From Cunninghamella blakesleeana (lineage: Eukaryota > Mucoromycota > Mucoromycetes > Mucorales > Cunninghamellaceae), in the NCBI GenBank assembly GCA_017871115.1, contig JAFCIZ010000004.1:534501-598500 (forward strand): 64,000 nucleotides of DNA, given 5' to 3'. Below, piece by piece: positions 31,294 to 37,674 of the stretch; positions within the stretch are counted from its first letter, which is position 1; each line of letters opens with the position of its first letter. Made by a program: the position numbers and the translations under genes. Below the pieces are notes generated by a model, which did not search any database, was not told the origin of the DNA, and saw nothing but the letters and a program-made list of their open reading frames with translations.

Positions 31294-32289
31294 ATGTCAG
31301 CGTCGCTAACGGACTTGATCGTTTCTATTGTAACAGAACTTACTGATATAACTATTAATATTCCTCAACTTAATATATCACTTCCCCTTCTTCAAATCAT
31401 CCACGCCATATTAATCAATTATGCTTATCGATCAGCTTTAAGAGAAGCTCATAGTAACATAGGATGGAACCAGGGCTTATTTGCAACTATTGTTATGGCA
31501 GCTGGTGGTGGAAGTACAGTAGCTCTTCTTCGTGGTGAACCTTTAGGTATTTTAAAGTCTAATATGTTCTTTGGTATTTATGGGTAGGTGCTTTTTTTTT
31601 TTTTACTTTCATATTTTATATAAGAAAGAGTGGAAAAAAAAAAGATAATAGAATGGTGTTAAAAACAAAAAAAATTGATCAAAATATTTATCCGATATTA
31701 TTACGTTCCTTTTTTTTTTTATTATTACTACAATAGTGCTACCTATTGGTTAATGTTTTCCAATCCTTATTTATATCAATTTACACAATATTTGTTCAGT
31801 ATACCTGTTTTACAAGAGGTATTGATATTAGCAGATGGGATATTGCGTAACTACGCAATTACACGTGTGGGAATAGAAGGTGTTGGATCAAATCCATCTT
31901 TAGGTGAAGATAAATGGGTAGCCAAAATCATTTGTGGTACCCTTGCAGGCTCCGGTGGGGGATTTTGGTTAGACACTTTTCGATTACATCAAGAGCATTG
32001 GACGTTTACTACACCTCAATTCCTTCGTAGCCCTACAATTGATATGAAAGCTAGTTTCCTTTCCACTCTCTTTTATATTACTACCACCTCACCTGAATTA
32101 AGCTCTCTTCTTGGTTGTCCATATTTCACAAAAACTGAAGCAGAAGCTTGGGGTGCTGTAATTTTATCTTCGGGACTTATTTATAAATCTTATGTAAATA
32201 AAATAAATAGCGTCAAGATACAAGTAACACCATCGCCTACTACAATTGTAGAAGATCGTCATCAAGAAAAAGATAAAAAATCAAATTAA
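31294..32289 (+). CDS. TRIC-type trimeric intracellular cation channel homologue
   Basis: Exons 31294-31583 and 31737-32289 give 280 aa. Several hydrophobic helices (PLLQIIHAILINYAY; GLFATIVMAAGGGSTVALL; NMFFGIYGATYWLMF; VLQEVLILADGIL; VAKIICGTLAGSGGGFWLD). The Gly-rich motif GTLAGSGGGF together with the AAGGGS helix matches TRIC/TMEM38 channels, which form potassium-permeable counter-ion channels in ER/SR membranes of animals and have fungal and prokaryotic relatives. The C-terminus is hydrophilic and Lys-rich. Role here (ER counter-ion flux) is inference from family. Confidence 0.75.
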
Positions 32290-32363
32290 ATAAATCACAA
32301 TTTATTTATTATAAATTTCAATAAAAAAAATAAAAACTTGATTATCGTCACTTTTATCTATTT

Positions 32364-32470: not shown

Positions 32471-32649
32471 TTATCGGTTGCCACGATACACATAAGGACA
32501 ATGACTAAATTATTTCGGAAAAAAAACAATCATGTGAACATTTTTAGCACTTTAATCTACATATATTTTTATTATATCATTAAAACTCACGTTTTATTGT
32601 GCCAAGGTTCTCCACAAAGTCTACAACCAAGATGAATAGGTCGACTCAT
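32471..32649 (-). CDS. Zinc-knuckle microprotein, copy 1 (30 aa)
   Basis: Two exons, 32649-32591 and 32504-32471, joined over an 86-nt intron (donor GTGAGT, acceptor TTTAG). The 30-residue product contains one perfect CCHC knuckle, CRLCGEPWHNKTHC (C-x2-C-x4-H-x4-C), followed by CPY-type residues (last Cys + ProTyr) and a basic end (RGNR). The intron falls after codon 19, phase 2, between the His and the last Cys. The gene is far too small to be found by ORF length; support comes from two paralogues at 33097-33297 and 34531-34732 that keep the same knuckle spacing, Trp-His pair and intron position. Single CCHC knuckles usually bind RNA or single-stranded nucleic acid; function here unknown. 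Confidence 0.65.
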
Positions 32650-32745
32650 ATTTTTTTTGTTATTTTTTGGATTACAGTATAATATGAAAAGAAACAGGAA
32701 ATACTTGAGAAAAACACACGCTAGCATTTTATACTTTATATGATT

Positions 32746-32755
32746 ATGTTGTCAA
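32746..32755 (-). promoter_or_regulatory. Shared upstream element of zinc-knuckle copy 1
   Basis: Plus-strand ATGTTGTCAA (TTGACAACAT on the coding strand), 97 nt upstream of the copy 1 start. The identical 10-mer occurs at comparable distance before copies 2 and 3, though the flanking sequence has diverged. Could be a promoter element or simply residual duplicated sequence. Confidence 0.4.
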
Positions 32756-33096
32756 ATAATCATTTTATTATTTAATTTTTTTGGATGTAGATGATATTTA
32801 TCGTTTAAAAAAAAAGGAATATCTTTTTTGGTTATTTAACAACTCTTTTACCAATATTGATTTTAAGGAATTTTAAAATAAAATAACAAAAAAAGGTGCT
32901 GGTGATCATCAAGAAAAGAATAAAAAAAGCCATTTGCAATTTATTATAAAGTAAAATTACTTTTATTAATTTTAATTTGATATATATATATATAATATTT
33001 GAAATAGAAAGAAAAAGGGGAGAAGTTACATGTATACATATATATACATGTATGCAAGATATAGAAGTATCTATTGAATAGGATTACCTTGTGACT

Positions 33097-33297
33097 TTAA
33101 AATTCTGCTTCAGATTCATCATCTGGTAAATAAGGACATTGACTACATTAATTCAGAGCAACAAAAAACATGCAAGCATTTTGAATTAATAATATTTAAT
33201 ATTTTAAAATATACACTATTATTATTGTAATTTACGTAGGTTTATGCCAAGGATTTCTACAATTCAAACAACTGGGTTGATATCTTCGGTTGCCCAT
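33097..33297 (-). CDS. Zinc-knuckle microprotein, copy 2 (35 aa)
   Basis: Exons 33297-33236 and 33142-33097 with a 93-nt intron (donor GTAAAT, acceptor TGTAG). Product 35 aa with the knuckle CLNCRNPWHKPTQC (C-x2-C-x4-H-x4-C), then ProTyr and an acidic tail (DDESEAEF), unlike the basic/neutral ends of the other copies. N-terminus MGNRRYQPS is basic. The intron again splits the knuckle after His plus two codons, phase 2. The Cys/His positions, Trp before His, and Cys-Pro-Tyr are retained while most other residues differ from copy 1, which argues for selection on the protein. Confidence 0.65.
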
Positions 33298-33414
33298 TTA
33301 TTTTCATTTGTATTTTGAATTATAGTAGGATATGAAAAAGGAAATACTATATAATGCAATTATAAAAAATCTATATCATTTTTATTCATGTATTCGACAG
33401 AGCTATGTTGTCAA

Positions 33415-33424
33415 TTTATAGTTA
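33415..33424 (-). promoter_or_regulatory. Shared upstream element of zinc-knuckle copy 2
   Basis: Plus-strand ATGTTGTCAA, 118 nt upstream of the copy 2 start; identical to the elements before copies 1 and 3. Confidence 0.4.
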
Positions 33425-34530
33425 TTGTTTATGATAAATAGTGTTCATTATTTAATTAATAGCAAGTACTTTTAGTTGTAAGGCAACTATATTAAATACC
33501 TTTGTATTTCATTATATATCAATATTTATCAAGTTTGGCTTATAAGCATATTATAAATCGTGTAGGTAATAAATCAGATTTAACACAAAAGTAAAATAAT
33601 AATAATAATAATAGCAGCTACTGATAGTACTGTTATTTTTATAAAATTTATAGAGTATTGATAGTCAATCATAAATATTTCCAAACCAAAAGTAAAATAA
33701 CATTTATTAAAAAATTAAAATTTCTCCATGCAAAATTTCATTGTAAATACTTTTTAATTATTTATTTATCGTTCATTCTATTTTTTCTATATGTCAATTT
33801 TTTTTAACAAAATAACGATTATATAAAGCTCAATTTACTCAAAATTCTACCTCTTCTTTTTGAAAAAAGTATCATGAATATACTATTGGATCTTACTTCA
33901 CATGCCTAAAGCATCTGGAACTACAATAACTGTGTTTTCATTAATGTCATAAAAAGGGACTCAAAGTGACTTCAATATAGTTAATGTTATTCGTTTTTTA
34001 GGTATAAAAGTAAGACTCACATATATGTATTGAAAATAAAAAAATATAACAATAATATAAACCTTTTTTTATTATCTAATATAAGTTGTTCTAATTTATT
34101 TTTACTTTTGAAGATTAGGAGGGAAATCGATATTCGAATATCCAATTCGCATTTGACAGAATGAATGGAATGTGTGCATCAAGTTAAAGAAAGGTCTCTA
34201 CATAGTAAATATAATTGATATAAAATAAAATAATGAATGCGCTATAATTGCATCATTAAGGATTAATATACAAGTTATATACGAATAAAACAAATAATAT
34301 TAAAAAGCAAAAAGTAATACAATCATCGAGTAAAAAGTAGGGAAAAAAAATAAAATAATTATAATTTATTAAATGCGATATAAAAAATAAAAAATATGAT
34401 CGCTATTATATATGTAAAGTAAAAAAATAAAATAAAATAAAAAAGAGTGAGAGAGAAAGAGGAAAAAGGGAGGAAAACATATATGTATATATGTATATAT
34501 GTAAATGCAAGAGCTATCTATCAGATGACT
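33425..34530. other. Gene-poor spacer between zinc-knuckle copies 2 and 3
   Basis: About 1.1 kb with no gene seen. Contains a 21-nt stretch at 34192-34212 that recurs with one mismatch at 60878-60898, and an A/G-rich microsatellite-like block at 34420-34480. May include decayed repeats. Confidence 0.4.
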
Positions 34531-34732
34531 TCATTGAGTATATAGATAAGGGCAGAGGCTATATTATTTGAGAATAAGGAATGCAATAAAATAAAATAAA
34601 ATAAATCATGTGAGCATTTTTGATCTATACTTGTTTAAATACTTTAAAATATATGTTTATTTATATTTAATTTGTAACCTACTATCGCTTATGCCATAAA
34701 CTTCCACAATAGGTGCAACCGCGTTTGTGCAT
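34531..34732 (-). CDS. Zinc-knuckle microprotein, copy 3 (25 aa)
   Basis: Exons 34732-34683 and 34558-34531 with a 124-nt intron (donor GTAGGT, acceptor ATATAG). The spliced product is only 25 aa and is almost nothing but the knuckle: CTYCGSLWHKRYLC (C-x2-C-x4-H-x4-C) with MHKRG in front and ProTyrLeuTyrThrGln behind. Without splicing the frame stops two codons after the His, so the last Cys exists only in the spliced mRNA. Intron position and phase (2) equal copies 1 and 2. The most diverged of the three, yet the four metal ligands and Trp-His are intact. Confidence 0.6.
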
Positions 34733-34835
34733 TTTTTTTAAAAAGTATTTTTGCTATTTTTTGGATTAAGATGGAGAATGAAAAAGAAAATAAGTAAAAA
34801 TATTAGCTACCATTCTTTTTATATATTATAAAATT

Positions 34836-34845
34836 ATGTTGTCAA
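34836..34845 (-). promoter_or_regulatory. Shared upstream element of zinc-knuckle copy 3
   Basis: Plus-strand ATGTTGTCAA, 104 nt upstream of the copy 3 start; identical to the elements before copies 1 and 2. Confidence 0.4.
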
Positions 34846-34898: not shown

Positions 34899-35680
34899 AT
34901 GGATCATTATTATTATTTGGATGCTTGTCGGGTAAGTATCTAATCTGTTTTGTTGTTCATTATATATATATATATATATAACATTTCATTTCTCATAAAT
35001 GGTATAAAATAAAAAGAAATGTGATCTTTTATTATAAAATATATGTCATATGTTCCATGAAAAGTATATAAAATATGTTCATTTTGGAAGAAAAGATGAT
35101 CAATTAAAACTCAGTGTTCCTGTTTCGGATAAAAATTCGTCAAGTATTTTTAATTTTTCATTGTCTTTCACTCTATAGATTAATAGTAGTGTTTTTTATT
35201 TAGTAATATGGCAAATCTTATTAATTTAATCAAATTTCTCTGATTTTTTTAATTTTCTTTTGAAAATTATATAATAATGAATATTTCATTGCTCTTTTTT
35301 TTTTTCTCACATCAGAAGAATTTGTGATTATAAAGAAACACCAAGCTGATCCAATAATGGTTAAAATGATATTATTTGATCTATATGAAAACAATATACA
35401 TAGGTCAACTTTTATTCATTATTAGATGCAATTAAAATAGCCTATTGAAAGAACTGGAAAAAGATATTTGTTCTCCTGCTATAAAGAGACAATGATATTG
35501 AAGTATCCAATATTCGAAAGAAAAATTTTATTATAAAATCGCATTTTCATCAGTGACAACTTTTATTTGATCAAAAAAATTAACTTGTATAGACAATTGG
35601 AATGTAGAAATATTGGAACTGATACCACCATTTAAAAAATAGAAATAAAGAAATGGATTAACAACAAAAAAAATGTATGA
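34899..35680 (+). pseudogene. Possible decayed coding relic
   Basis: Plus-strand stretches look protein-like but are interrupted by stops. One begins MDHYYYLDACR at 34899 and runs into GTAAGT; another reads MFHEKYIKYVHFGRKDDQ near 35053; the longest, around 35312-35400, reads EEFVIIKKHQADPIMVKM then ILFDLYENNIHRSTFIHY and, after in-frame TAG codons, PIERTGKRYLF and ETMILKYPIFERK. The helix-like LYENNIHRSTFIHY resembles a helix-turn-helix of transposases but I cannot name a family. Reading breaks suggest a dead gene or dead mobile element; it may also be chance. Confidence 0.25.
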
Positions 35681-36766: not shown

Positions 36767-37674
36767 ATGTCATATAATAATAATTACTCTTTTCTATCAA
36801 CTTTGGATTCACTTGCATTTGAAACGACAGAACAGCCCATGACCACTACTGAAGAAGCAGCAGAAGATTTAGCACTTTGGGTAAAGCACACTTTTAATTT
36901 ATATACTATTTAATTTTGACTATAATATAAACAATTGCACAAAATAAATATTAATAAATGTATATACATTTGCATATATTTGTATATTTTATTATATAAT
37001 AGACAAATGCTAAATTCACATATGATATTGCTCCTGGTCAAGGTATTTTGGACAATAAAACTCTTGATATGGATAAAAAAATGTATGATCAATTAGCAAA
37101 ATATTTAAATATTGATTTAGTTTCACCAGCACCATTATTACCTTCTTCAGAGCTATCATCCACCACCACAACAGCTACAACCACACCTAACACATCAACT
37201 AATAATAGTCCTATAAATAATCTATCAGAATCATTTAAACCTATCGTGGCACGACCATCACCACCAACTCTTCTTCCAAAACCAATTACAGCTAATATAA
37301 ATAATAATAATAATAATAATAATAATACCTTTGCATTACCTATATTGCCTATCAGCGCTACTTCATCACCCATGTTAATAAATCCATCCATTGTAAATAA
37401 TAATACTACCAATATAACTAATGATAATAATAGCAAGAAAAGAGCATTATCAAATGACTCATCTGTAAATCCTGCTGACGATGATAAAAGACGCCGAAAT
37501 ACCGCTGCAAGTGCTCGGTTTAGAGTAAAGAAGAAATTAAAAGAACAAGCTTTAACTCAATCTGTTAGAGAAATGACTGAAAAGGCCGATAAATTACAAA
37601 ATCGTGTATATGAATTAGAAAATGAAATCAAATGGTTAAGAGATTTACTCTTGGAAAAAAATGGAAAAAATTAA
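36767..37674 (+). CDS. bZIP transcription factor (Cys3/Met-regulator-like)
   Basis: Exons 36767-36880 and 37003-37674 give 261 aa. The C-terminus holds a full bZIP: basic region RRRNTAASARFRVKKKLKEQ with the invariant Asn-x7-Arg, followed by a leucine zipper (VREMTEKADKLQNRVYELEN, then EIKWLRDLLL). This basic region closely resembles fungal Cys3-type regulators of sulfur assimilation. The N-terminal part is Thr/Ser/Pro/Asn-rich and disordered with repeated Asn runs, typical of an activation region. Target genes cannot be deduced from the sequence; sulfur regulation is an inference from the basic region only. Confidence 0.9.

Follow-up and report, generated by a model that had tools for sequence, protein, structure and literature searches.

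Zinc knuckles of the zf-CCHC family (PF00098), known from nucleocapsid, CNBP/Gis2, Air2 and ZCCHC proteins, consist of four ligands at the spacing C-x2-C-x4-H-x4-C, which hold one zinc ion. Here we analyze a tandem cluster of three very short genes, denoted c1, c2 and c3, in the genome of the fungus Cunninghamella blakesleeana (31.9 Mb, 12 contigs), whose predicted products share exactly this spacing; the window, that is, the whole stretch of 64,000 nucleotides (nt) that was analyzed, comprises positions 534501–598500 of contig C4. As in zf-CCHC proteins, there is often a CG after the second Cys and a CP at the end, and the surroundings are basic; unlike in those proteins, the knuckle is the whole protein, Trp replaces Gly before the His, and the knuckle is interrupted by an intron at a place not seen in the CNBP-like gene of this genome. 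Among the closest known counterparts are the archaeal C(P)XCG u-proteins, which are very small proteins of less than 70 amino acids (aa) with one zinc-finger domain, several per genome, like c1–c3 (PMC11241148, PMC10716476); however, the u-proteins carry two C(P)XCG motifs and c1–c3 one CxxC each, and the likeness comes without demonstrated homology. The one-domain zinc-finger u-proteins (<70 aa) of Haloferax volcanii are reported to contribute to stress adaptation, to swarming and to the formation of biofilms (PMC6562870). MicroProteins are small proteins with a single domain, which interfere with larger complexes (PMC6003976); c1–c3 are single-domain as well, but a parent is not established. 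Among the matches listed in searches of open-licence PubMed Central, none dealt with stand-alone CCHC knuckle microproteins in fungi, and none was found that combined IBR with “gag knuckle”. It is plausible that the family is undescribed; the zinc loop as such is known, but here it is unusually minimal, arranged in tandem and split by an intron, and the novelty is moderate.

The three genes are located on the minus strand, and each consists of two exons when rebuilt from the sequence: c1 (ATG at 32649, stop ending at 32471; spliced product MSRPIHLGCRLCGEPWHNKTHCPYVYRGNR, 30 aa), c2 (ATG at 33297, stop ending at 33097; MGNRRYQPSCLNCRNPWHKPTQCPYLPDDESEAEF, 35 aa) and c3 (ATG at 34732, stop ending at 34531; MHKRGCTYCGSLWHKRYLCPYLYTQ, 25 aa). 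The pattern C-x2-C-x3-W-H-x4-C-P-Y is present in all three spliced products, and the invariant residues are the initial Met, both Cys of the CxxC, Trp-His and Cys-Pro-Tyr. In all three copies, the donor lies 8 nt past the His codon, such that the intron splits a Thr codon in c1 and c2 and a Tyr codon in c3; when read through the donor, every frame stops at once (ACG TGA, after AAA, in c1; ACG TAA in c2; CGA TAG in c3). The introns are 86, 93 and 124 nt long, and all three restore Cys-Pro-Tyr in one common phase; no other single feature argues as strongly for real introns as this placement of the fourth ligand in the same phase despite three different intron lengths. Thus, the models reproduce the original prediction of three spliced mini-genes with products of 30, 35 and 25 aa and one C-x2-C-x4-H-x4-C each, and comparison of the copies bears out its statement that the four ligands, the Trp before the His and Cys-Pro-Tyr are kept while most other residues differ. 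Paralogy, open spliced frames, a common intron position and retention of the four ligands along with the Trp, Pro and Tyr are all evident from the sequence.

The cluster was identified correctly and is well above chance. When both strands of the window were scanned for C-x2-C-x4-H with an ATG no more than 20 codons away and a fourth Cys reached either directly or by splicing (intron of 50–149 nt), exactly c1, c2 and c3 were recovered, compared with 0 matches in 100 first-order Markov simulations of the window. The same scan of 82 further loci (263,987 bases in total, with some overlap; many were chosen because they hold knuckles) produced 30 matches, of which 28 were direct knuckles, all with Gly-His, and the remaining 2, both in the PHD-finger gene L011, were spliced. 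Genome-wide, the C-x2-C-x3-W-H codon pattern matched 28 times, vs 3 for the reversed pattern; five of these 28 matches (L011, L012 and c1–c3) can acquire, by splicing, a Cys with the correct spacing (donor no more than 12 nt from the His codon, intron of 45–199 nt), and three, all in this cluster, have a spliced Cys-Pro. Genome searches with c1 DNA, c3 DNA and c1 protein recovered the query copy alone and cannot exclude diverged copies elsewhere because the known sister copies were missed too; the three copies were jointly recovered solely by the C-x2-C-x3-W-H and leader patterns, both of which were drawn from the copies themselves. With a profile built from the three copies, the best further match in the window, among the matches listed for the window and the other loci, had an E-value of 0.092, and no further copy was detected in the 10-kb regions flanking the window (best E-value 1.8).

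The explanation that we favor, with a probability of roughly one half (0.52), is that c1–c3 are tandem-duplicated, spliced microprotein genes, the 25–35 aa products of which would form a single, perhaps nucleic-acid-binding, zinc loop. Each of the three duplicates would probably be transcribed independently, from its own promoter to its own poly(A) site, and removal of the one short intron would give a microprotein that is almost only the C-x2-C-x4-H-x4-C loop. The peptide would fold around one zinc ion and, as a small basic knuckle, could bind single-stranded RNA or DNA, either on its own or as an addition to a larger ribonucleoprotein; the variable residues would confer a distinct binding preference on each copy. 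The components of this explanation differ in strength. To judge from the sequences, c1–c3 are probably real coding genes and, if they are, we are still more confident that the products bind zinc, whereas the odds that the main partner of the coding form is nucleic acid rather than protein appear slightly worse than even; we lowered them from even because of the intron position in the PHD gene L011. Counted up to Cys-Pro-Tyr, c1, c2 and c3 have net charges of +2, +4 and +4, respectively, and this basic charge, combined with the variability of the remaining residues, suits a small nucleic-acid binder.

Several observations weigh against this explanation. The residue before the His is Trp, where zf-CCHC domains usually have Gly. 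The PHD-finger gene L011 has the Trp-His as well, with an intron 8 nt downstream, and this points to relatives that bind proteins. The tail of c2 is acidic, so that its overall net charge is -1. The 19-codon core, with 27 of 57 columns invariant, is overall no more conserved than its surroundings (98 of 230 columns upstream, 40 of 79 in the intron), and the ratio of nonsynonymous to synonymous substitution rates (dN/dS) among the copies, a check proposed beforehand, gives no clean purifying signal. Finally, a protein search with a 56-aa form of c1 that starts at an upstream ATG produced no homologue, the 25–35 aa forms being below the 40-aa query minimum.

Comparison with known knuckles leaves the assignment of c1–c3 tentative. 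There was no PF00098 row for c1–c3 at E-values up to 10 (HMMER filters drop most matches above about 0.1), and no Pfam match of the three products reaches its cut-off; the nearest knuckle model was AIR2-like_ZnK4, with 14.5 bits for c1 against a cut-off of 27, and eIF3g was weaker still. A profile of the three sequences weakly matched solved structures of nucleocapsid (E-value 0.0055), ZCCHC4 (0.019) and DDX41 (0.18). Among 14 distinct local knuckles, taken from the 30 best of 104 local zf-CCHC matches, the residue before the His is Gly in 13, Ser in one and Trp in none, compared with Trp in 3 of 3 copies here. Thus, of the knuckle label in the original prediction, the spacing stands, whereas PF00098 is not reached, Trp takes the place of Gly, and a PHD gene has the same Trp-His and intron position; “CCHC nucleic-acid-binding knuckle” is a reasonable label for c1–c3, although unproven. 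Two candidate sources of the cluster were rejected. One is a gag fragment of a local retroelement: the local knuckles differ before the His, and c1 and c3 DNA match only themselves (with the sister copies missed too). The other is an exon of the CNBP/Gis2-like gene L070, in which the knuckle introns are 3, 11 and 3 nt after the His, not 8, and the motif is Gly-His. L070 itself (C6 near 1561789–1562701) is a multi-knuckle gene, with knuckles repeatedly cut by introns. The PF00098 search of the genome gave 104 matches at E-values up to 1. Many of these lie in open frames that recur at the same length, suggesting that several families of retroelements have been active recently in this genome; CYNCNESGHQANQC is common to seven loci read among these matches.

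PHD fingers usually have a Trp beside the zinc-ligand His, as does the second half of the IBR domains of RBR ligases, and many IBR members have an aromatic residue before the His; PHD and IBR loops bind proteins. Hence the competing explanation that fares best, even if we consider it unlikely: the genes and the zinc loop would be the same, but the loop would be a protein-interaction module that derives from, or mimics, half of a PHD or IBR domain and interferes with a larger partner in the manner of microProteins. The presence of Trp-His in all of c1–c3, in contrast to the local knuckles, favors such a module, and so does L011 (1366–1797, minus strand; C1 near 51000; Pfam PHD, 41 bits), which reads CDGCDRGWHTN and continues into a GTAAGT donor that matches those of c1–c3 in phase and in its distance of 8 nt from the His codon. 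The central part of the PHD finger (PF00628) indeed has the same C-x2-C-x3-W-H, but its next Cys is at His+3, where c1, c2 and c3 have Thr, Thr and Tyr, their fourth Cys being at His+5. No Pfam PHD row was obtained for c1–c3, the remainder of the C4HC3 domain is absent, and, beyond the C, C, W and H, visual comparison shows no agreement between L011 and c1–c3. In L026, a second locus that looks like a PHD gene, there is no intron at that position, and a single shared intron offset in a single gene can be chance. An exon common to L011 and c1–c3 is possible.

The second zinc site of IBR domains (PF01485) has the C-x2-C-x4-H-x4-C spacing in common with c1–c3, and c2 matches Pfam IBR with an E-value of 0.0069 (16.9 bits, below the cut-off of 24.3) over profile positions 51–65, the last 15; c1 and c3 gave no Pfam IBR match. 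Unlike the IBR of RBR E3 ligases, c1–c3 come without the first zinc half and without RING domains. A recognizable IBR domain was accordingly rejected: the c2 match is below the cut-off and covers the second half alone, and the complete C6HC with two zinc sites is absent. In none of the five RBR genes read in this genome (L077/L079, L078/L083, L080/L085, L081/L088 and L082/L087) does Trp precede the His, and none has an intron 8 nt after it: four of the five have no intron between the His and the Cys, and that of L078/L083 is 3 nt after the His, in another place and phase. In the latter gene (L078 1660–1830; C2 near 3312334), which is of the RBR type, the second zinc site of the IBR is split by an intron of about 135 nt with the donor GTTAGT.

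The coding signal comes from three sequences. A second alternative is that c1–c3 are decaying remnants of a duplicated knuckle gene, with the copies drifting as transcribed relics or functionless pseudogenes. We consider this improbable. In its favor, the core diverges like the flanks, and the c2 intron is missing the possible branch A of c1 and c3. By NG86, dN is 0.43–0.48 for the three pairs, whereas dS is 0.46 for c1–c2 (a ratio of about 1, as expected of remnants), 2.4 for c1–c3 and undefined for c2–c3; because of this spread of dS, dN/dS cannot decide. Against decay, the three frames and all splice sites are intact, and seven residues are kept while most others have changed. In the seven invariant codons, none of the 14 first and second positions has changed, compared with three of the seven third positions; in the other core codons, which were picked for differing, 6 of 24 first and second positions are unchanged. 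In 100,000 column shuffles of the core, at least seven invariant residues were obtained in 1.4% of cases, absence of stops in 5.4% and both in 0.136%, that is, P is about 0.0014 for the frame and residues together given three sequences. Diversifying selection was considered and is not claimed: the variable codons (9 of 36 columns invariant) look fast because they were chosen for differing, and the core as a whole equals the flanks.

The resemblance among the copies extends to the upstream, leader, intron and 3′ DNA, which, together with the conserved ligands and intron position, supports the original description as a paralogous family of spliced microproteins. The upstream element TTGACAACATA ends about 95–110 nt upstream of each ATG and is followed by a TATA-like sequence in c1 and c3; the introns share the element AAAATG(C/T)T(C/T)(A/G)CATG (Table 1). 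With zero mismatches, the leader pattern, itself drawn from these copies, finds just the three copies in 32 Mb, and with up to three mismatches it has 84 matches in the genome vs 55 for the reversed pattern. Because the upstream, leader, intron and AATAAA blocks are all shared, each copy looks like a complete transcription unit; the promoter, branch-point and poly(A) roles of these blocks are inferred from their sequence and placement. Since TTGACAACATA, the leader block and the intron element are non-exonic yet conserved, the locus could also be viewed as a conserved non-coding RNA or a regulatory DNA repeat with incidental short frames. This is very unlikely because no Rfam match was obtained at E-values up to 1, RNA folding is ordinary (z-scores -0.15, -1.52 and 0.54), and, given the window scan and simulations, chance would not be expected to produce three CCHC motifs with one common intron phase. 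Least credible is a secreted c1 peptide of 56 aa that would begin at the ATG at 32727 with a hydrophobic N-terminus ahead of the knuckle: there is an open in-frame upstream extension of 26 codons with a hydrophobic stretch (window 32650–32727, minus strand), but c2 and c3 have in-frame stops in that stretch, T-rich DNA reads hydrophobic by itself, the protein search gave no homologue candidate for this form, and the ATG is probably not transcribed because it is located about 13 nt after the start of a TATA-like box.

If expressed, c1–c3 would be spliced genes whose entire product is one zinc loop, too short for the limits that gene finders usually apply; they would offer a compact way to test how small a genome-encoded eukaryotic protein can be while still folding and functioning, and would suggest that compact genomes hold overlooked microproteins of the intron-split kind. 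A broader proposition, which we put forward as doubtful, is that c1–c3 represent a set of stand-alone, intron-split knuckles of 25–35 aa, evolved in a fungal lineage, in which the ligands are fixed and the residues around them vary freely; they would act in trans as exchangeable modules for the binding of RNA or protein and perhaps stem from one exon of a larger zinc-finger gene; if true, these would be among the smallest spliced zinc-finger genes.

Table 1 Features of the c1–c3 cluster (positions in the window; exons according to the rebuilt gene models)
Feature	Position	Strand	Description
c1 coding exon 1	32591..32649	-	MSRPIHLGCRLCGEPWHNK + two leading bases of Thr codon
c1 intron, 86 nt	32505..32590	-	GTGAGT...TTTAG; cuts knuckle between His and last Cys
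c1 coding exon 2	32471..32504	-	remainder of Thr codon, HCPYVYRGNR, stop
c2 coding exon 1	33236..33297	-	MGNRRYQPSCLNCRNPWHKP + two leading bases of Thr codon
c2 intron, 93 nt	33143..33235	-	GTAAAT...TGTAG; position and phase as in c1
c2 coding exon 2	33097..33142	-	remainder of Thr codon, QCPYLPDDESEAEF, stop
c3 coding exon 1	34683..34732	-	MHKRGCTYCGSLWHKR + two leading bases of Tyr codon
c3 intron, 124 nt	34559..34682	-	GTAGGT...TATAG; position and phase as in c1
c3 coding exon 2	34531..34558	-	remainder of Tyr codon, LCPYLYTQ, stop
c1 5′ leader block	32661..32690	-	TTTTCAT...TAATCCAAAAAATA; alignment and pattern search
c2 5′ leader block	33309..33338	-	conserved; pattern search
c3 5′ leader block	34755..34784	-	conserved; pattern search
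c1 invariant upstream 11-mer	32745..32755	-	TTGACAACATA; alignment; then TATAAA at 32735-32740, putative promoter
c2 invariant upstream 11-mer	33404..33414	-	TTGACAACATA; alignment
c3 invariant upstream 11-mer	34835..34845	-	TTGACAACATA; alignment; TATAA-like sequence next
c1 intron element	32531..32544	-	AAAATGTTCACATG; intron alignment; putative branch-point context
c2 intron element	33169..33182	-	AAAATGCTTGCATG; intron alignment; G where c1 and c3 have possible branch A
c3 intron element	34607..34620	-	AAAATGCTCACATG; intron alignment; putative branch-point context
c1 AATAAA	32305..32310	-	putative poly(A) signal; direct reading
c2 AATAAA	32940..32945	-	putative poly(A) signal; direct reading
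c3 AATAAA	34365..34370	-	putative poly(A) signal; direct reading

The G+C content across the window is 20–32% (in 2-kb windows). Frames near the cluster match, above cut-off, a CAP59-type mannosyltransferase, a bZIP factor, an MFS transporter and an O-methyltransferase; a neighboring TRIC channel frame is just under its cut-off (23.8 bits vs 25.9). The cluster is flanked by the TRIC-like gene, at its 3′ end (plus strand, stop near 32289), and by the start of the bZIP gene (plus strand, ATG near 36768 by reading). At window positions 32280–32340, the 3′ end of the c1 unit, on the minus strand, converges on that of the TRIC-like gene; the two 3′ ends probably overlap and could be antisense to each other. 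On the plus strand, opposite the region upstream of c3, positions 34899–34931 contain an ATG and the short frame MDHYYYLDACR followed by a good donor (GTAAGTAT), possibly a divergent mini-exon, or a chance occurrence.

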